Part shown: piece after piece, positions 31,302 to 60,988 of the stretch
Layout: each line of letters begins with the position of its first letter
How positions within the stretch are numbered: the first letter of the stretch is position 1
From: Bacteroidales bacterium
GTDB lineage: Bacteria; Bacteroidota; Bacteroidia; Bacteroidales; Salinivirgaceae
Direction of reading: 5' to 3'
Assembly (NCBI GenBank): GCA_012519055.1
Contig: JAAYQU010000010.1
Location: 1-64,000 of the forward strand
DNA: 64,000 nucleotides
The notes under the pieces: generated by a model
The model's database searches: none
Told to the model about the DNA's origin: nothing
The model's input: only the letters and a program-made list of their open reading frames with translations
Made by a program: the position numbers and the translations under genes

Positions 31302-34187
31302 TTATTTATTGTATAGTTTCTTCTCTTTTATCTCAACAACCTTTCCGTATTTAGCCAATTCTTTCATATCAATCTGTTTTTTGTCTCCAACAATCATATA
31401 AACCATTGGCTTGTCTTTTACTTCGTTGATATAGAAGTTGTTGATAGTCTCCCAAGTTAAATTTTTATATCCCTCTAACTTTGTGATCATAGGGTCTTCC
31501 TTGTATCCTAAAAGTTTCCAGTTTTCGACAGAGTAAGCAAGATCTCTGAAACCAGGTCTTTTGGTTTGTGAGGAGAGGTCAAGATAGTTACGAATCATAT
31601 CTGTACGTTCTGGCTTTTGGGGCATATCTCTGATTAGTGAAGTAAACACCTCCATTGCGGTTAACGTTTTGTCAGATTGTGTGCCAACATATCCGTAAAA
31701 ATCGTATGGTTTCCCTACTTCTTTCGGAAGGCTAAAACTTCCACCTGCGGCATAAGACAATGAACGATATTCTCTTATTTCCTGAAGAATTAGCCCATTG
31801 AATCCGCCGCCAATGTATTCATTATATGCTTCAATTTCTACTGCTTTCTCGGGTGAGAACGAATTGCCAGCAAAGTAGAAGAACATTTTGCTTTGACGTG
31901 ATTTAGGCTTATTGACGAAAAACACAGTGTTTTCAGAATATGATTTTCTTGGCTTGTCCAATTCATTTTTATCTATCAGTGGTTTCTCATGCATAGGTAT
32001 ATGTTTTATAATCATATCGGAAACGTCCTTCGCAGATGTTTTGCCAGTGAAACGAAATTGGACATTGTAGGTTGTTGCCTTTTTAAAAGCATCAACAACT
32101 TTCGTTGCTTGTAGTTTTTTTAGCTCTTTGCTTGATAATCTGTCAATGTAACTTGATTTATTTTCATATAATCCGTAGTTATATAGTGCGTTTGCAACAG
32201 CGTCGGGTTCAGAACGTTCCACTTTACGGACAGCCAACTCACTATCAATTATGGTTTTCAGCTTTGATTGCTCCAATGTTGGTTTGTCTATTAGCATCCC
32301 AATTAGTTCAAGTGTCCTGTCAAGGTTTTCTTCGTCACCTTTAATGTCGATGTAAGTCGATGTTCTTGATGACCATGAGTTAAATGTTGTACCTATTTTT
32401 GCAAACTCGTTTTTTAAATCGTTAAGTGATAGATCGCCTGCTCCGCAATATTTAACAGCTTGACCTGCGTACGATAAAAGAGGGATTTCTGCTTCTCCAA
32501 CTTTGTATTCAATCATTAATGTAAATATATCGTTTATGTGATTTTCTACTTTTAATAATTCTACGCCATTAGAAACAGATATACGTTCAATATCTTTATC
32601 AAAATCAATAGTATTAAATGTGGGTTCTAATGATTCTATCTTGTCCAAGTGTTGTGCGTATTGGCTGCGTTCATTTGTATTGGTTGATAGTGGCTTAAAT
32701 CCGGGCTTCTCGATTTTCTCTTTCTTTGGGAAACCCATTTTTGAATTGAATGAAAGATAGTTTTCGCCAAATATTTCGGAAGCCATATTGGTAATATCCT
32801 CTTTGGTCAAACTTTTTACGATGTCTGGATATTTATATAAATTGCTGATTGCTCTTCCTGATGTAAAATAGTTGTTGTACTCTAAAGCTCTATTGGAATT
32901 GTTCTCCATGTTGCTAACAAAGGAGATATATTCGTTTTTTTTGATACTTTCAAGTGTTTCATCGTCAAATTCTCCTTTTTTTATTTTTTCAATCTCTTCG
33001 AGTATGATTTTTTCAGCCTCTTCTAACTTTTGACCCACTAACTTTGGTATATAAAGTACTAATATCGCCCCATGATCCTGAAAAGGCAAATTAAGTGCAT
33101 ATGCCCCTAATAACTTTCCATCGTCTGAAAGTTTGTCTAATAGACCCGTAGAGTAGCTATTGTTTAGCAGATTTGTCATTATTTCCGCTTTAACATAATT
33201 ATCATCTTTCCCTGATGGTGCTCTAAATCCAAGTATTCCCATTTTGATTGGTGTTAGTTTGGCTTCGTGAAATTCACGACCGTTGAATGGGGATTCTGCC
33301 CAAACTTTTGGTTCTGGGACTTCGCCACGTTCCCATTTTCCGAATTTCTCTTCAATAATGGGGATTATCTCTTCTGAATTAAAATCGCCTACAAGAATTA
33401 GCGCCATATTGTTTGGGACATAATAGGTTTTGAAAAAATCATACATCTTTGTTAGCGATGGGTTTTTCAGATCTTCGATAGTACCTATTAGCGTTTGTTG
33501 ACCGTAAGGGTGATTTTTGAAAAAATGCTTTTGGAACTCTTCAAAAAGTTTGGTTTGGAACTGATCGTTATAGAGGTTCTTCTCTTCGTAAACAACCTCT
33601 AATTCTGCTTGAAACCCACGAAAAACAGGTTCAGTAAAGCGGTGCGCATATAAGTCTAACCACTTTAATATTTGATTAGATGGAAATGTATTGTAATAAA
33701 CAGTGTAGTCGGGTCCAGTTCCGGCATTGAGATTAGTGCCACCCATTTCGTTAATCAGGTTGCTAAGTTCGTTGGGTATAGCGTATTCGTTCGCTTTTAT
33801 AGACTCTTCGTTGATTTTGGCTTGAATCTCTTTGCGTTCATTTTCGTTGGTGGTTTTTCCTAATTGGTCGTATAGCTCGAATATACGGTCAATGTGAGGT
33901 TTTTCCTTTTCCCAATCTATAGTCCCCAAGGTTGTTGTGCCTTTAAAAAGCATATGCTCTTGATAGTGAGCCATTCCGGTTGCATCGGCAGGGTCGTTTT
34001 TCCCACCTGCTTTTACCGTAATCAACCCAAAGACTTCGGGCTTGTCGTGGTTTTCATCTAAAATTACTGTAAGTCCGTTTTCAAGAGTGTATTCGCGGAC
34101 GTTGTTGTCTGTTTGCGCATTAGCAATATTTATTGCAAAAAGTGGCAACAGGAGTAATAAAATAAGTAACTGTTTCTGTAATTTCAT
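31302..34187 (-). CDS. M16 family zinc metallopeptidase (insulinase type, two-domain)
   Basis: A 961-residue exported peptidase. After a signal peptide (LLILLLLLPLFAINIANA, then Gln) the N-terminal half has the inverted zinc motif HYQEH (His74, Glu77, His78) and, about 75 residues on, 'EVVYEEKNLYND' with the third ligand. The second half repeats the fold without the zinc motif, as usual for processing-peptidase-like pairs fused in one chain. It probably degrades peptides in the periplasm or at the surface. The frame continues upstream to 34367, but the signal peptide marks the ATG at 34187 as the start. Confidence 0.92.
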   Translation of the reverse strand: MKLQKQLLILLLLLPLFAINIANAQTDNNVREYTLENGLTVILDENHDKPEVFGLITVKAGGKNDPADATGMAHYQEHMLFKGTTTLGTIDWEKEKPHIDRIFELYDQLGKTTNENERKEIQAKINEESIKANEYAIPNELSNLINEMGGTNLNAGTGPDYTVYYNTFPSNQILKWLDLYAHRFTEPVFRGFQAELEVVYEEKNLYNDQFQTKLFEEFQKHFFKNHPYGQQTLIGTIEDLKNPSLTKMYDFFKTYYVPNNMALILVGDFNSEEIIPIIEEKFGKWERGEVPEPKVWAESPFNGREFHEAKLTPIKMGILGFRAPSGKDDNYVKAEIMTNLLNNSYSTGLLDKLSDDGKLLGAYALNLPFQDHGAILVLYIPKLVGQKLEEAEKIILEEIEKIKKGEFDDETLESIKKNEYISFVSNMENNSNRALEYNNYFTSGRAISNLYKYPDIVKSLTKEDITNMASEIFGENYLSFNSKMGFPKKEKIEKPGFKPLSTNTNERSQYAQHLDKIESLEPTFNTIDFDKDIERISVSNGVELLKVENHINDIFTLMIEYKVGEAEIPLLSYAGQAVKYCGAGDLSLNDLKNEFAKIGTTFNSWSSRTSTYIDIKGDEENLDRTLELIGMLIDKPTLEQSKLKTIIDSELAVRKVERSEPDAVANALYNYGLYENKSSYIDRLSSKELKKLQATKVVDAFKKATTYNVQFRFTGKTSAKDVSDMIIKHIPMHEKPLIDKNELDKPRKSYSENTVFFVNKPKSRQSKMFFYFAGNSFSPEKAVEIEAYNEYIGGGFNGLILQEIREYRSLSYAAGGSFSLPKEVGKPYDFYGYVGTQSDKTLTAMEVFTSLIRDMPQKPERTDMIRNYLDLSSQTKRPGFRDLAYSVENWKLLGYKEDPMITKLEGYKNLTWETINNFYINEVKDKPMVYMIVGDKKQIDMKELAKYGKVVEIKEKKLYNK

Positions 34188-34530
34188 AGTAATATATTTA
34201 GTTATGTAAAATTTAAATTGTTTGCTGAACTTTTTTGTCTTATCACTATAAGACAAAAATAACTCAAAAATGTTACAAAATTGTGTAAAAAAACGCTTAA
34301 GGTGCAAATTAATTGTCTTTGATTCAATCGAAACAGAAAGCCACGTTTGTTTTTTATGACAATACAAGTTAGCGAAGTTTTCAATGGATAAATATAAATT
34401 TGTTGTTATTACAAATGGGCGGTGAAATCCGAGATTTTTTACCGCATATTTTGCGGTGCATTTTAATAACAGTATATTTATAGACCAAACTGTCTAAAAA
34501 CAAAAGTTTAGTACTTAATAATAAAAACTA
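34188..34530. other. Divergent intergenic region
   Basis: A 343-base spacer between two divergent genes. It contains a small hairpin ACCGCA/TGCGGT (34441-34457) flanked by T-runs and a candidate minus-strand -7 box at 34254-34261 (TATTTTTG on that strand). I see no gene or tRNA. Confidence 0.5.
34254..34261 (-). promoter_or_regulatory. Candidate -7 element of the M16 peptidase gene
   Basis: Reads TATTTTTG on the minus strand, an exact TAnnTTTG match, 67 bases before the ATG at 34187. The expected TTTG about 20 bases further upstream is not clear. Confidence 0.35.
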
Positions 34531-36423
34531 ATGAAACTTTTTACAAAATCTCGTTTTAAAACCTGTTTAGATTGTCCTGCAAAATTATATTATCAGGATA
34601 GAGATACTCAATATGACAATAGTAAAAAAGAAGATAGCTTTCTTGAAGCTCTTGCAGAGGGCGGCTATCAGGTGGGAGAACTCGCAAAACTATATTATCC
34701 GGGTGGTCATAATATTGCGGACAGAGGCTATGACGTTCCGTTAGAGAAAACCAATGAATTATTAAAAAATGAAAACGTAGTAATTTTTGAGGCAGCAATT
34801 AAATACAAAAACTTTTTTATCAGAGTCGATATTCTTGAGAAAAAAGGCAATATAATAAACTTAATCGAGGTTAAATCAAAATCTTTTAACGGAGAGAAAC
34901 CAGATTTTAAACTTGAAGATCCATACATTCAAGATGTTGCTTTTCAAACTTTTGTAATGAAAAAGGCTTTTCCACACTGGCAAATTGATTCCTTTTTGAT
35001 GTTAGCCGACAAGTCAAAAGCTGCAACTGTTAATGGGTTAAATCAAATGTTTAGACTTATCAAAGAGAGTGCTGAACGTACAAGCGTTTTGCTAAATAGC
35101 GAAATGATTAAGAAGCATGGAATAGGTGAGCCTGTTTTGTCAAAAATCAATGTAAGTGATAAGGTTTACAAGATATTAACTGAGCCAGATAAAGATAATC
35201 TTAGTTTTGAAGAAAAAGTTACTCATTGGGCAGACTTGCATTCCAAAGGACAACAAATCGACTCGGAACTTTCTCACATGTGCTTTAGTTGCGAATTTCA
35301 AAGCGAGGATTTATCAAAATCGGGGTTTAAAGAGTGTTGGTCGAAGCATTACAGTTGGAGCGATGAAGAGTACACCAAACCAAAAATGTCCGAAATATGG
35401 AATAATAGAAAGAAAAAATCAATGTTTGATAAAGGAGTTTTTTTCTTAGATCAGGTTGAAAAGGAGGATATAGGAGATTTTGACCAAACTTCAATCGCAT
35501 TGTCTGTAGGAGAGAGACAATGGCTGCAAGTAGAAAAATATAAAACCAAAGATAATACTCCTTTTATCGAAGAAGAAGGTTTAAGAAATCAAATGCAATC
35601 TTTTAATTATCCATTACATTTTATTGATTTTGAGACTTGTATGGTTGCAATTCCTTTTTACAAAGGTCAAAGACCATACGAGCAGATTGCTTTTCAGTTC
35701 TCTCATCACATTATGCACAAGAGTGGCAAAGTAGAACATAAAACTGAATTTATTGAAATTGAAAGAGGTAAGTTTCCCAACTTTGATTTTGTAAGAGCTT
35801 TAAAAAAAGCACTCGAAAATGATAACGGAACAATTTTTAGATATGCAGCACATGAAAAAACAGTATTGAACCAAATTCTAAAGCAAATTGAGGATACTAA
35901 CGCAGAGAACTTGCCGGATAAAGAAGAGTTAAAAAAGTTTATTATATCAATAACAGGCGATAGAGAGGAACGAGCAATGGTTGATATGCTGAAGTTGGTA
36001 AAGGATTTTTATTATCATCCAAGAATGAAAGGATCGAACTCTATTAAAGCCGTTTTGCCAGCAGTAATGGAATCTGATTATGTGAAAGACAAATATTCAC
36101 AGCCGATAGGCAAAATAAACGTTACAAGTATAAACTTTTCTGATAATATGACTTGGTGTCAACTTGATGATAATGGACAAGTTATAGACCCATATAAATT
36201 ATTAAGTCCTGTATTTAACGATATTATTATTTCTGACTACGATTCCGGTGAAACTGTCGCAGACGGAGGAGCCGCAATGACAGCATTTGCAAGAATACAG
36301 TTTGCCGAAATGCCCGATGGTCAAAGAAACTCAACAATTGAGTCTCTAAAAAGATATTGCGAACTTGACACTCTTGCAATGGTAATAATTTATGATTATT
36401 TTAGAAAACTAACAGGGGTGTAA
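34531..36423 (+). CDS. DUF2779 protein: Cas4-like Fe-S nuclease fused to a DEDD exonuclease-like domain
   Basis: A 630-residue soluble protein of the DUF2779 family. The first ~270 residues look like a RecB/Cas4-type PD-(D/E)xK nuclease: Asp100, then Glu113-Val-Lys115 ('LIEVKSKS'), with Cys12 and Cys15 at the front and Cys251, Cys254, Cys269 at the back, an arrangement suited to a [4Fe-4S] cluster as in Cas4 and AddB. The C-terminal part starts with 'HFIDFET' (Asp366, Glu368) and ends with 'RYCELDTLAMV' (Tyr609, Asp613), which fits a DnaQ-like DEDDy 3'-5' exonuclease. It stands alone between unrelated genes. A DNA repair or defence role is inference; all likely catalytic residues are present. 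Confidence 0.75.
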   Translation: MKLFTKSRFKTCLDCPAKLYYQDRDTQYDNSKKEDSFLEALAEGGYQVGELAKLYYPGGHNIADRGYDVPLEKTNELLKNENVVIFEAAIKYKNFFIRVDILEKKGNIINLIEVKSKSFNGEKPDFKLEDPYIQDVAFQTFVMKKAFPHWQIDSFLMLADKSKAATVNGLNQMFRLIKESAERTSVLLNSEMIKKHGIGEPVLSKINVSDKVYKILTEPDKDNLSFEEKVTHWADLHSKGQQIDSELSHMCFSCEFQSEDLSKSGFKECWSKHYSWSDEEYTKPKMSEIWNNRKKKSMFDKGVFFLDQVEKEDIGDFDQTSIALSVGERQWLQVEKYKTKDNTPFIEEEGLRNQMQSFNYPLHFIDFETCMVAIPFYKGQRPYEQIAFQFSHHIMHKSGKVEHKTEFIEIERGKFPNFDFVRALKKALENDNGTIFRYAAHEKTVLNQILKQIEDTNAENLPDKEELKKFIISITGDREERAMVDMLKLVKDFYYHPRMKGSNSIKAVLPAVMESDYVKDKYSQPIGKINVTSINFSDNMTWCQLDDNGQVIDPYKLLSPVFNDIIISDYDSGETVADGGAAMTAFARIQFAEMPDGQRNSTIESLKRYCELDTLAMVIIYDYFRKLTGV

Positions 36424-36475
36424 ATATCCCTTTTTGCCTTGATACATTAACAGGAAGTAACGTTAGATTACAAAT

Positions 36476-36516
36476 AAAGCCAACCAAATCATATGATTTA
36501 GTTGGCTTTGATTTTT
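36476..36516. terminator. Strong, probably bidirectional terminator
   Basis: A 15-position stem with one mismatch (36476-36490 with 36495-36509, AAAGCCAAC pairing GTTGGCTTT) and an ATAT loop, followed on the plus strand by GATTTTTT. It lies between the convergent DUF2779 and mutB genes. Confidence 0.88.
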
Positions 36517-36531
36517 TGTGTTTCTAAATTA

Positions 36532-38679
36532 TTATTCAGCCATTAAAAGCTCAAGAATTTTTATAGCTGCATCGGAGATACGTGTTCCCGGACCAAATAC
36601 AGCCATAGCGCCTGCTTTGTAGAGATCTTCGTAGTCTTGATGTGGAATAACTCCGCCTACAATTACCATTATATCCTCACGTCCAAGGCGTTTTAGCTCA
36701 TTCACAACAGCCGGAACTAAGGTTTTGTGACCTGCGGCTAACGATGATACTCCAATAACGTGAACATCATTATCGACTGCATCTTTAGCGGCTTCTTCGG
36801 GTGTTTGGAATAGTGGACCTATGTCAACGTCGAAACCGATGTCGGCATAGCCCGTTGCTACAACTTTGGCACCACGGTCGTGACCATCTTGTCCGAGCTT
36901 AGCAACCATTATACGTGGTTGACGACCCTCTTTCTTAGCAAACTCTTCGCACAATGCCTTTGCGCGTGCATATTCGTCATCTTCTTTAGACTCCGAAGCA
37001 TATACTCCTGATATTGAACGTATCACAGCTTTATATCTCCCTACAATTTTTTCACAAGCGTCAGAAATCTCGCCAAGCGAAGCACGTTTTTGTGCAGCAA
37101 TAACCGACAACTCTAACAAGTTGCCTTCGCCCGTTTCAACGCATTTTGTTATAGCGTTTAAGGCGGCTTGAACCTCTTGTTCGTTTCTATTTTTACGTAA
37201 CTCTTTTAATCTATTTATTTGTGCAAGTCGTACCATAGTGTTATCTATCTCGAGAATATCTATTGGGTCTTCTTTTTCAAGACGATATTTGTTTACTCCC
37301 ACGATAGTATCTTTTTCACTGTCGATACGAGCCTGCTTGCGTGCTGCGGCTTCTTCGATACGCATTTTGGGTATTCCCGTTTCGATTGCTTTTGCCATAC
37401 CGCCCATGCTCTCGATCTCTTCGATAAGTGCCCAGCCACGATCTACTAACTCTTTTGTAAGTGCCTCAACATAATACGAACCAGCCCATGGGTCAACTAC
37501 GCGACAAATTTGGGTTTCGTCCTGTATATATATTTGAGTGTTTCTTGCAATACGTGCGCTAAAGTCAGTTGGCAGTGCAATAGCCTCGTCTAATGCGTTG
37601 GTGTGGAGTGACTGTGTGTGTCCCAAAGCCGCTGCCATTGCTTCGATACAAGTACGCGTGATATTATTAAACGGGTCTTGTTCGGTCAATGACCAACCTG
37701 ATGTTTGCGAGTGTGTACGCAATGCCATTGATTTCACATTTTGTGGATCAAATTTCTTCACAATCTTTGCCCATAACATACGTGCAGCGCGCATTTTTGC
37801 AATTTCCATGAAGTGGTTCATTCCTATAGCCCAGAAGAACGAAAGACGTGGCGCAAATTGGTCAACAGACATACCTGTTTTTAGTCCTGTGCGCAGATAG
37901 TCCAATCCGTCTGCTAAGGTGTATGCCATTTCGATATCGGCGGTTGCGCCGGCTTCTTGCATATGATATCCCGATATTGATATACTGTTGAATTTGGGCA
38001 TATTCTTGGCTGTATATTCAAAAATATCAGCAATAATGCGCATTGAGAATTCTGGTGGGTAAATGTAAGTATTACGAACCATGAACTCCTTCAAAATATC
38101 GTTTTGAATTGTTCCTGCAAGTTCCTCCAATTTTGCACCCTGTTCCAATGCTGTGACGATGTAGAACGCCATAATCGGCAGTACTGCTCCGTTCATGGTC
38201 ATTGAAACCGACATTTTATTCAATGGAATTTGGTCAAACAAAATCTTCATATCCAGGATTGAGTCTATTGCAACGCCTGCTTTACCGACGTCTCCGACAA
38301 CTCTTGGGTGGTCAGAGTCGTAGCCACGGTGTGTGGCAAGGTCGAATGCTACTGAAAGTCCTTTTTGACCCGATGCCAAGTTACGGCGATAGAATGCGTT
38401 AGACTCTTCGGCGGTCGAGAAGCCTGCATATTGGCGAATTGTCCATGGTCGCATGGCATACATAGCAGAATATGGTCCACGTAAATATGGAGGGATACCT
38501 GCTGCGTAGCTTAAATGCTCCATGCCCTTTAAATCATCTTTGCTATAAACAGATTTCACAGCAATTTTTTCTGCTGTAATCCAGTCTTTGGCTATTTTTT
38601 GAGCCTCCTCCCAAGCTTTGCCTGTAGGGTTTTCGGCTTTTATTTTTGAAAAATCTATATCGGTGAATTTTGGTCTCAT
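36532..38679 (-). CDS. mutB: Methylmalonyl-CoA mutase, large (catalytic) subunit
   Basis: Interconverts succinyl-CoA and methylmalonyl-CoA with adenosylcobalamin, in propionate formation or use. The 715-residue protein has the TIM-barrel substrate domain ('[18 protein letters not shown]', '[18 protein letters not shown]', '[10 protein letters not shown]') and the C-terminal B12 domain with the base-off motif Asp598-Gly-His600-Asp-Arg-Gly603. It follows mutA by 21 bases. No MeaB-type GTPase or epimerase gene is in the window. Confidence 0.97.
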
Positions 38680-38700
38680 AACTATAGTTTTAAGAGTTTG

Positions 38701-40584
38701 TTATTTTAAAATTCCAAGTTCCTTTTGGAAACCTGTAAGCGATTCAAGTACGTTCGAGCGTACATGAATGAAGTTATTAATACCTTTCGATTTCAACTCC
38801 TCAACGCTATCTTTTGGAAAACCTGCAACCACCAAAATGGTTTTTTTATCCAATAACTCTAATGCTTGTGGAGCAATGGTTGCATACTCATCGTCTGAGC
38901 TACAAAGAACAACGATGTCAGCTTTTGCCTCTTTTGCAGCTTTAACACCATCGGCGATTGTGTCGAAATTGGGATTGTCTTTTACCGCAAATCCTGCTAC
39001 AGCAAAGAAGTTTTGCGAGAATTGCGAACGTGCATTGCTAAATGCCACAGGACCATAAGTCAACATAAATGCCAGAGGTCTTCTGTTTTTCTTAGCATAC
39101 ACGTCAGTGCGGTAACGAAGTTGCTCAAACTCTTGCGCTCCTCTGTAGCGAATAATTCCGGGAACTTCTGCATCGGGTTTTGTTAAATCCGTGGGTTTTA
39201 GTGCATCGGGATTTATATGCTCTTTTTCTTCTTTGAAATTTGGGAACTGGTTTGTTCCGAGAAGATTTTCTTGTCGGTTGGCAACAGCTTGTCTGCGTGC
39301 TTTGGCTCCTTCATTTAGAATGTTTTGTACAAACTGCTCACGGAATGCTGCTAAATAACCGCCTTTGTTTTCGATTTCAACAAAAAGTTTCCACGCTTTC
39401 TCGGCAATCTTATGTGTGATAGTTTCTAAGTAATATGAACCTGCTGCTGGGTCGATAATTTTGTCGAAATATGACTCTTCTTTTAAGATAATTTGTTGGT
39501 TACGTGCAATTCGTTCCGATAGTTCGTTTGAATCTTCGTAAATAGTGTTGAACGGGTCAATAACCATTGATTGTACACCGCCCAACGCAGCCGACATCGC
39601 TTCGGTTGTTGTTCGTAGGACGTTTGTGTGGGGGTCGTAAATGGTTTTGTTCCATTCTGATGTTTGCGCATGAATGTACATTTTAGAATCTGCTTTCGCT
39701 GCGCCGTACTGTTGCATTACTTGTGACCATAGAAGACGTGCTGCACGGAATTTTGCTATTTCAAAGAAATAATTTCCTCCGATATCAAAGTGAAATTTCA
39801 TTTTATTATTGATTTCGGCAGCGGTCAATCCCAATTTCGATAGTTGCGCAATATATTCGCTACCTACAGCCAACGCAAAAGCCAGCTCCTGAACTGTTGT
39901 TGCACCGGCGTTGCTATAGTGAATGCCGCTTACAGTAATGGTTCTCAACTGATTGTACGATGCAAACAGTTTTGTTATTTTTTCGCATTTAGAGAATGCG
40001 TCTTGCTGTGTTGTACAGAATTTTCCTTTTAGTGTAAATCTGCCAATTGGGTCGTAATTAATTGAGCCGATGAGTTTTGACGGGTCGATTTTGTGTTTCT
40101 TCAAAACTTGTAATAGTGCTTCTGAGAAATCAACAATGCCGACAACTCCTGCAAAATTAAGCTCTATGGCTTCTACGCAAATTCCCTCTATCAATGTTTC
40201 GATATCGTTAGCCGTGGGTGTTTTATCCGTGTGGAATTCGAAGCAAATTGATGTTACTCCTTTGTTTAAAATATCAAGAGCTTTTTTGTTTGCTTTTTTG
40301 ACGTCGCAAGCGCAAATATTTTGGCTTATGTGCCAATCATTATTTTTGATTTTGTTGCCACGTACGTAAGGGAATTCCCCGGGATTGTTGTCTAAATGGC
40401 TTAACCCTGACAGATCTTGTGCGGTGTAAAAAGGCTGAACATCAATGCCTTCGCGAGTTTTCCAAACAAGTTTTTTGTCAAAATCGGCACCTTTTAGGTC
40501 AGCCACTATTCTCTCTTTCCAAGCCTCGGGGCTTACTGGTGGAAATTCATCAAACAATCGGTTACTTTTTTTCTGTTCTGACAT
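38701..40584 (-). CDS. mutA: Methylmalonyl-CoA mutase, small subunit
   Basis: Structural partner of MutB in the heterodimeric enzyme. The 627-residue protein is homologous along its length ('ISQNICACDVKKANKKAL', 'TVSGIHYSNAGATTVQEL', 'SEWNKTIYDPHTNVLRTT') but lacks the DxHxxG cobalamin motif in its C-terminal domain, as expected for the small subunit. First gene of the mutA-mutB operon; a candidate -7 box TAATTTTG (minus strand, 40611-40618) lies 27 bases upstream. Confidence 0.95.
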   Translation of the reverse strand: MSEQKKSNRLFDEFPPVSPEAWKERIVADLKGADFDKKLVWKTREGIDVQPFYTAQDLSGLSHLDNNPGEFPYVRGNKIKNNDWHISQNICACDVKKANKKALDILNKGVTSICFEFHTDKTPTANDIETLIEGICVEAIELNFAGVVGIVDFSEALLQVLKKHKIDPSKLIGSINYDPIGRFTLKGKFCTTQQDAFSKCEKITKLFASYNQLRTITVSGIHYSNAGATTVQELAFALAVGSEYIAQLSKLGLTAAEINNKMKFHFDIGGNYFFEIAKFRAARLLWSQVMQQYGAAKADSKMYIHAQTSEWNKTIYDPHTNVLRTTTEAMSAALGGVQSMVIDPFNTIYEDSNELSERIARNQQIILKEESYFDKIIDPAAGSYYLETITHKIAEKAWKLFVEIENKGGYLAAFREQFVQNILNEGAKARRQAVANRQENLLGTNQFPNFKEEKEHINPDALKPTDLTKPDAEVPGIIRYRGAQEFEQLRYRTDVYAKKNRRPLAFMLTYGPVAFSNARSQFSQNFFAVAGFAVKDNPNFDTIADGVKAAKEAKADIVVLCSSDDEYATIAPQALELLDKKTILVVAGFPKDSVEELKSKGINNFIHVRSNVLESLTGFQKELGILK

Positions 40585-60340: not shown

Positions 60341-60988
60341 TTAACTTTCATTGTTCGTTCGTTTTAGCGAATATACCGTTTTCGTGTCAACATTCTCATA
60401 ATCAATCAGGTCAATGGTTAACAAATCGACAATAATATCTTCAGCATGTTTTAGGTTAATCGAGGCTTTTCGACAAAATTTAGATATAGTTATATGCTCG
60501 TGCTCTTTTAGATAGTCAATTAAAATATTGTGCTCCCTTTCTAACTCTATAAACATGCCGAGAGGCGATTTTTTCTTTCTCCACGATTTAACTAACAATT
60601 TATTTGCCAATATATTATTATCATTTTGTCGAATATAAACCGTCCACTTTCCGTTTTCGTTTGGAGCAGAATAGGGTTTGTTGTTTCCCTTTTCAACAAT
60701 CACTTCAACTACGGTCTTTCCCTCAACTATCCATGTTTTTGCCTTACATCTGATTTTTGGACGTGTGTACATTTGCATAGCGGCATCTATCATATGTAGC
60801 TCCTCTTCGCTTCGCACGCCGGCAATAACGCCGTTGTCTTTTACGCCTATTAGGAGACGTCCGCCATCTGTGTTAGCAAATGCAGTTAGCGAGCGAGCAA
60901 TCTTTTTCGCATCTGTAATAGCAAACTTAAAATCTTGCTGCTGGTGCTCTCCCTCTTCTATTAGCTTATGTATGTAGTGTTTTTTCAC
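60341..60988 (-). CDS. AlbA_2 (Schlafen-type) domain protein
   Basis: A 215-residue protein with an N-terminal AlbA_2 domain ('EGEHQQQDFKFAITDAKKIA', 'LTAFANTDGGRLLIGVKDNG'), often annotated as an ATP- or nucleic-acid-binding divergent AAA_4 domain, and a C-terminal winged-helix-like part (~155-215, 'EHEHITISKFCRKASINL'). Such proteins are transcriptional regulators or defence factors. It lies on the same strand just upstream of the restriction enzyme, so control of that enzyme or a joint defence role is possible but is inference. Start is a GTG at 60988. Confidence 0.8.
   Translation of the reverse strand: MKKHYIHKLIEEGEHQQQDFKFAITDAKKIARSLTAFANTDGGRLLIGVKDNGVIAGVRSEEELHMIDAAMQMYTRPKIRCKAKTWIVEGKTVVEVIVEKGNNKPYSAPNENGKWTVYIRQNDNNILANKLLVKSWRKKKSPLGMFIELEREHNILIDYLKEHEHITISKFCRKASINLKHAEDIIVDLLTIDLIDYENVDTKTVYSLKRTNNES

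Follow-up and report, generated by a model that had tools for sequence, protein, structure and literature searches.

A predicted two-domain nuclease of the DUF2779 family in a Bacteroidales bacterium and the defence-type surroundings of its relatives

What role could be served by a single chain that joins two types of nuclease and whose family extends across many phyla and plasmids? The question is raised by one gene in a stretch of 64,000 nucleotides from a Bacteroidales bacterium (the window, contig JAAYQU010000010.1). The DUF2779 protein encoded there is read here as a mobile DNA-degrading nuclease, most likely serving defence against invading DNA, a reading to which we give about an even chance. 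The features of the locus are as follows.

34531..36423, plus strand: DUF2779 (PF11074) two-domain nuclease gene, 630 aa (open reading frame, Pfam 3.8e-29, AF2 model)
34531..35385, plus strand: N-terminal Cas4/EXO5-like PD-(D/E)xK domain, residues 1-285, with D100, E113, K115 and Q139 (domain model, VIA, conservation)
34573..34575, plus strand: Cys15, first predicted [4Fe-4S] ligand (Cys in 129/129 members with a letter there)
35281..35337, plus strand: stretch with Cys251, Cys254 and Cys269, three further predicted cluster ligands (130/130 each)
35602..36420, plus strand: C-terminal DEDDy-type 3'-5' exonuclease domain, predicted, residues 358-630, with D366, E368, E442, Y609 and D613; D485 is invariant too (VIA, conservation)
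36476..36509, no strand assigned: terminator-like 15-pair stem between the DUF2779 gene and the convergent mutB (pattern scan only)

The window protein matched PF11074 over residues 363-504 (101.9 bits against a gathering cut-off of 23.3) and is thus a full member of the family; no other family passed its cut-off in Pfam or NCBIfam. It was the only DUF2779 match in the genome. An AlphaFold2 model of the full protein, built with 49 relatives, reached a mean pLDDT of 91.1 and a pTM of 0.88, and the gene that a first-pass annotation had placed at 34531-36423 is therefore backed by reading frame, family match and a confident model. With the full model, Foldseek returned no match at E<=0.001; the fold comparisons below come mostly from VIA-align, a second pass over Foldseek candidates. 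Neither the single protein nor an 18-row profile matched a PDB sequence.

In the full model, residues 1-281 were superposed on the Cas4 part (residues 8-214) of the Cas4/Cas1 chain 7mi4_A (VIA Z 12.3, 5.2 A). Modelled alone (residues 1-285, pLDDT 93.2), the N-terminal domain found Cas4 8d3l_J in Foldseek at 2.1e-5. Its best VIA matches were all Cas4 chains (Z 11.6, 11.3, 10.9 and 10.0 at 4.0-5.2 A), including 7mi4_A (Z 11.6, 5.2 A, 201 residues) and 8d3l_J (Z 10.9, 4.5 A, 189 residues). Below Cas4 followed SSO0001 (9.9), RecE (9.6), EXO5 and AdnA (both 9.5) and MGME1 (9.3), down to AddB (7.7). By profile, the window protein gave no PF01930 match at E<=1, and the genome-wide search for this family returned only a sub-threshold match on contig C13. 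A distant DUF2779 member of 930 aa (L105), on the other hand, matched Pfam Cas_Cas4 with 28.6 bits against a cut-off of 22.7. In this protein (L105:3809-6601), the first ~450 residues matched no Pfam family at 1e-4 and were followed by the Cas4 match at 544-666 and DUF2779 at 740-860.

The C-terminal half (residues 358-630) was superposed on the exonuclease domains of B-family DNA polymerases with VIA Z scores of 12.2-13.6. The best of these matches was 5iud_A (Z 13.6, 2.6 A, 175 residues), and the archaeal PolB 5mdn_A was also found (Z 13.0, 3.1 A). The motif II acid, which the first-pass annotation had missed, is E442, located in the first turn of helix 441-455 of the model and invariant in 131/131 members; this position in the helix is where motif II belongs. 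In the available text of a 2014 survey of RNase H-like proteins, only D or E is given for the helix alpha-2 position of 3'-5' exonucleases (PMC3985635). The DEDDy signature (DxE on strand 1, an acid on helix 2, YxxxD near the end) is thus complete, and 3'-5' activity is predicted from sequence and model. The proposed fusion of a Cas4-like domain with an exonuclease is supported by the folds of both halves and by the Cas4 profile match in L105; similarity of the N-terminal half to Cas4 is present in the best fold matches, though the window protein itself is unmatched by the Cas4 profile.

Conservation was followed in an alignment of 48 members (the window, 7 plasmid loci and 40 genome loci) that was later widened to 131. 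Copies of other loci (L172, L185), a gene in two overlapping pieces (L209) and a locus with no full family reading frame (L211) were dropped. Three incomplete members were kept: L190 (split, without the N-terminal columns), L133 (late start, no C15) and L060 (short C-terminus). The set includes near-copies, L176 and L177 being identical. Among the 130 members that have a letter at these positions, one of them the window protein, the proposed PD-(D/E)xK residues D100, E113 and K115 were conserved in 127, 123 and 126, respectively. In the exonuclease domain, D366 and E368 were kept in 131/131, Y609 in 129/130 (L131 has N) and D613 in 130/130, and D485 was invariant. Both sets of proposed catalytic residues therefore hold, and both active sites are complete in the window copy. 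In the Comamonas plasmid copy (L060:11989-13566), the C-terminus was truncated right before an integrase gene, with loss of Y609 and D613.

For the cysteines, the first-pass annotation had proposed a 2+3 set. Positions C15, C251, C254 and C269 were Cys wherever they exist among the 131 members, and C12 was Cys in 4/129 only, which rules out the 2+3 arrangement and leaves a 1+3 set; four of the five proposed cysteines are thus invariant and one falls away. The 1+3 pattern is that of Cas4 and also of AddB and EXO5. The four conserved cysteines would hold a [4Fe-4S] cluster.

Seven members of the 131 showed an altered PD-(D/E)xK site, all with the cysteines and the exonuclease site intact. In L078, L081 and L083 the D, E and K were all changed, in L097-L099 the E was replaced by K or R, and in L100 both E and K were affected. 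The first three have a common locus order, ssb-gldE-murB-DUF2779-M48 peptidase-purB, in which murB and M48 were assigned by Pfam on L078 alone and ssb, gldE and purB are presumed names. All 19 DUF2779 matches (17 genomes) of the corresponding Bacteroidota family, f24, were then considered. Of these copies, 13/19 were found at the core locus (purB seen in 12/13), and 13/13 lacked D, E and K but retained all four cysteines as well as the exonuclease residues. The remaining 6 copies were intact (L071, L072, L084, L085, L235, L242); two genomes, G171 and G203, have one core and one intact copy each. In the core copies, therefore, the exonuclease and the presumed cluster were retained when the cut was lost.

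The window copy is flanked on the left by an M16-type peptidase gene (31302-34367, minus strand) and on the right by methylmalonyl-CoA mutase-type genes (mutA, mutB; 36532-40584, minus strand), all named by eye from sequence, so that the DUF2779 gene stands alone, with no adjoining defence gene. The term 'stand-alone' used for it in the first-pass annotation is thus apt for the window copy and does not carry over to its many relatives that adjoin WYL and defence genes. A position away from CRISPR, RecBCD and AddAB genes is also supported as far as tested, since the genome has a sole Cas1 match, on contig C6, and two PDDEXK_1 (AddB/RecB-type) matches, one each on C16 and C13, with the window on C10. 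The genome's own WYL gene is likewise on a contig other than C10. In the region 34200-36700, terminator-like sites numbered 3 against a shuffle mean of 1.1. Promoter-like sites were no commoner than expected by chance (10 against 10.2). The GC content is 0.338 in the gene and 0.364 in the window, a gap too small for a claim of foreign origin. Rfam gave no match in the window at gathering thresholds. Additionally, a Schlafen AlbA_2 protein of 215 aa (PF04326, 3e-21) is encoded at 60341-60988 on the minus strand, ~24 kb from the DUF2779 gene.

Among five genomes of the same genus or family, mutA and mutB were adjacent in each (mutA in two pieces in G300); DUF2779 was not beside them in any of the five, and the gene after mutB varied. 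The best relatives of the M16 peptidase were located elsewhere, so no clean empty site can be drawn. DUF2779 was absent from the two genomes of the same genus, which are 92% and 96% complete. In same-family G299, a 43-residue C-terminal piece with 53% identity was found within an open frame of 111 aa (G299:C196:2475-2603, L037), possibly a decayed copy.

Across the phylum, DUF2779 was matched in 43 of 296 genomes drawn, and a protein search found it in 9 of 60 relatives and in 25 of 198 genomes of the order, the window's genome counted each time. Full-length long forms in the order, besides the window's, numbered three (G339, G372, G464). Single-protein scans of public genome contigs and viral contigs found none, but a search with alignment A1 did find relatives in both; in public genomes at least 508 stretches encode relatives, of which the best 80 were used. 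Furthermore, 32 plasmid records matched, 17 of them over >=80% of the protein, and seven loci (one a fragment) came from the viral collection. Phage records gave no match.

A tree was built from 78 long forms; the 11 phylum labels on 77 of its rows required 16 changes, against a least possible 10 and a shuffled mean of 39.7. The phylum labels were clustered yet not clean, as in a Rhizobium MAG row within a Bacteroidota clade (99*); the tree was made by a quick method, and MAG contamination and paralogues can look like transfer. The window protein groups with its nearest relative, L125 of Perlabentimonas gracilis (97*). In L176, L177 and L204, labelled Colwellia and Pseudoalteromonas, ~13 kb around the gene is common (L176/L177 99.9%, L176/L204 96.8%), although the contigs of L176 and L177 bear the labels of two different families. 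We read this block, from sequence, as a shared island, with mislabelled assemblies as the alternative. It begins beside his-type genes, named by eye. Judged by their sequences, DUF2779 relatives seem to pass between distant bacteria.

The recurrent partner of these relatives was a WYL regulator. A cluster holding WYL was found in 13 of 48 loci (its L068 member WYL by Pfam) and a WYL-containing similarity cluster in 19 of 86 loci of the named-genome set, including L172, which duplicates L068; both clusters were joined by similarity, with only some members scanned for WYL. By Pfam, 11 of 132 adjacent genes in the named-genome set were WYL. Within 5 kb of the long form, WYL was present in 8 of 20 genomes against 0.094 expected from their own WYL density (35 WYL genes). 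The P value of this test is not independent, as some of its loci are where the association was first seen; the named-genome set is more independent in this respect. The test covers the 20 genomes that carry a long form outside the core locus, without G097 and G254, whose copies are long by frame and short-type by similarity. In 12 of the 20, even a distance of up to 10 kb from the long form brought in no WYL gene. Among WYL regulators, those of the BrxR family are reported to adjoin phage defence systems in 48% of cases, or about half, according to the available part of their description (PMC9122601).

Neighbours were selected for family scanning as informative-looking, and several of them gave no family. 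The families found included a patatin with a DncV-like synthase (CBASS-like) by L068 and L070, ThiF by L068, Eco57I by L070 and L072, a PLD-SNF2 helicase by L072, SIR2 by L084, SLFN_AlbA_2 by L059 and type I restriction by L060 (annotation and its cluster). By L125, the neighbours were McrBC, an NT5C nucleotidase (by Pfam), AAA, WYL and PDDEXK_4. Toxin-type Fic and HipA genes had three members each. A nucleotidase-like cluster occurred in 4/86 loci, a dGTPase PADLOC model in 3/132 adjacent genes (among the matches listed) and HD domains in L154. In the accessible text on an Arcobacter plasmid, a dGTPase lies near SbcCD and DUF2779 (PMC6690266). Such nucleotidase and dGTPase-like neighbours would fit DNA breakdown. 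Some short forms also have conserved neighbours (e.g. L086, L088, L090, L092, L097-L099).

PADLOC models were applied at 20 loci, L066-L085, with core loci L078, L081 and L083 included, to the closest two genes on either side with a length of >=100 aa. This set, A3, comprised 77 of the 154 neighbours found, the other 77 (L086-L105) lying outside it. WYL models matched five members, type I methylase two and specificity two (best 25 of 191 families). The control, A4, comprised 107 genes in 20 fixed-coordinate regions of 14 genomes, eight of which are also test genomes; no family had more than one member among the best 25 of 110, with Cas1, Csx1 and PDC-S19 each present. A further set, A5, comprised 132 of 157 neighbours, without L177 and L199-L210; L172 and L185, which duplicate L068 and L066, had been removed. 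The comparison is qualitative, since only the best 25 families of 191 (A3), 110 (A4) and 256 (A5) are covered and distinct members are not countable, and weak, since the control regions hold defence genes too.

With respect to known systems, the window protein agrees with Cas4 (PF01930/DUF83) in fold, PD-(D/E)xK motifs and 1+3 cysteines, but it does not lie with cas1 and has a second nuclease domain. As it has no PF01930 match and the only Cas1 match is on another contig, Cas4 proper was rejected. It has the nuclease fold of EXO5, AddB, AdnA, MGME1 and RecE (Z 7.7 to 9.6) but, unlike AddB and AdnA, no helicase part; the Pfam scan gave no helicase family, which sets aside an AddB/RecB helicase-nuclease. 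EXO5 and MGME1 are not known to have a DEDDy domain. PolB exonuclease domains have the fold, DxE and YxxxD in common with it, whereas the motif II acid in the window protein is Glu (E442) and a polymerase is absent. Residues 575-627 match the end of the UU173 model (NF045869) at 31 bits against a cut-off of 225, so that membership was rejected. As a known PADLOC anti-phage system it was rejected as well, with 0 families matched at E<=1. COG2251/PF13482 RecB-family nucleases likewise combine a DUF83-type nuclease with an RNase H-like exonuclease, often with AAA domains, as far as the accessible text goes (PMC3985635). Their exonuclease is of another family, and membership was rejected because the window protein has no PF13482 match at E<=1. 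One record annotation carries the name 'TM0106 family', which we take to denote COG2251/PF13482.

The fusion architecture is not new. In its available sections, the 2014 paper lists DUF2779 as family F.17 of the RNase H-like superfamily, 'presumably' a 3'-5' exonuclease, and states the co-occurrence of DUF83 (Cas4-type) with DUF2779; those sections hold no cysteine, neighbourhood or activity data on DUF2779 (PMC3985635). The accessible text of a Cas4 phylogenomics paper is without 'RNase H' or 'DnaQ' (PMC5704561). Searches on a Cas4 + DEDD exonuclease fusion and on WYL/Cas4-like/defense island gave no title or abstract start on DUF2779 among the matches listed, and those on COG2251, RecB with TM0106 and RecB/RNase H/Schlafen gave nothing further on it. 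The earlier remark that DUF2779 has no described biochemistry agrees with the literature searched, in which none was found and outside of which most subscription-journal papers fall. New here are the exact cysteine set, the finding that relatives occur in WYL and defence-island surroundings and the recurrent loss of the Cas4-type site while all else is kept.

Enzymes of the Cas4 and EXO5 types act on ssDNA ends, which they pass or cut, and DEDDy domains take off nucleotides at the 3' side. By analogy, the N-terminal domain, held by a [4Fe-4S] cluster on C15, C251, C254 and C269, would grip an ssDNA end or flap, which the PD-(D/E)xK site could then cut. The C-terminal PolB-type domain would use two metal ions to trim nucleotides from the 3' end. 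In combination, the domains may process both strands of a DNA end with no helicase of their own, unwinding being supplied by host or neighbouring enzymes. Most likely, the protein is an end-degrading nuclease for defence, otherwise for repair; cluster binding, a substrate of DNA and not RNA, the polarity and the part played in defence are all probable properties that we infer.

The defence reading draws on the fold matches of both halves and the completeness of both active sites, and on the patchy occurrence, the cross-phylum tree labels, the ~13-kb shared block and the plasmid and viral-collection loci. It draws further on the WYL enrichment and the defence-type neighbours of relatives (L059, L060, L068, L070, L072, L084, L125). 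Against it stand the window copy, which has no defence neighbour, PADLOC model or phage record, the 12 genomes of 20 without nearby WYL and the weak PADLOC comparison. The 13 f24 core copies among housekeeping genes are closer to a cellular role, as is a transposon mutant of Mycoplasma bovis with its insertion in a DUF2779 gene, which the available text lists among six mutants with deficient growth, the others including holA, dnaB and recD (PMC7373297). These same two observations favour a housekeeping nuclease that processes ends in DNA repair or recombination, like EXO5, MGME1 or an AddB without helicase, and that occurs with defence genes only as islands collect accessory genes. Such a role is tenable, if short of an even chance: RecE, EXO5, AdnA and MGME1 are among the nearest folds after Cas4, some short forms have conserved neighbours and SbcCD lies directly upstream in L208, but the patchy distribution, with absence from both same-genus genomes, and the strong WYL enrichment argue against it.

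Compatible with either role is the idea that the Cas4-like half serves chiefly to clamp DNA and that the exonuclease alone matters. The 13/13 core copies and L097-L100, which lost E113 or more and kept the rest, would fit this, but E113 is kept in 123/130 members, the window included, in a set with only 3 of the 13 core copies; cutting thus appears to be under selection in most members, and we consider the clamp unlikely. An RNA-processing or RNA-degrading enzyme is very improbable. The DEDD class, which includes RNase D, RNase T and oligoribonuclease, often acts on RNA, and the Fic and HipA neighbours point weakly in this direction, but the best exonuclease-domain matches listed are from DNA polymerases, and the fused Cas4-type domain has relatives that act mostly on DNA. 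Returning to the defence reading, a bolder form can be stated, tentative and as a whole rather doubtful. The long forms would be a widespread, unrecognised, WYL-regulated anti-phage or anti-plasmid nuclease exchanged between defence islands of many phyla, with the 3'-5' exonuclease indispensable and the Fe-S Cas4-like half a DNA-end sensor; one Bacteroidota lineage would have domesticated a fixed-locus, exonuclease-only form with a Cas4 domain catalytically dead but cluster-bearing. Direct and cheap tests of a non-CRISPR Cas4-like domain and of the defence role can build on the invariant cysteines, on the association with WYL and on the fact that one active site, but not the other, has been lost in nature.

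Further arrangements were observed. On one viral-collection contig (L208:2466-6970), SbcD and SbcC were identified by Pfam directly upstream of DUF2779, and L209 looks alike; downstream are McrC-like and ADP-ribosylglycohydrolase-like genes, named by eye and cluster. In L210 (455-1978), ADP-ribosyltransferase-like and macrodomain-like genes, named by eye, were observed upstream of a WYL-cluster gene and DUF2779.
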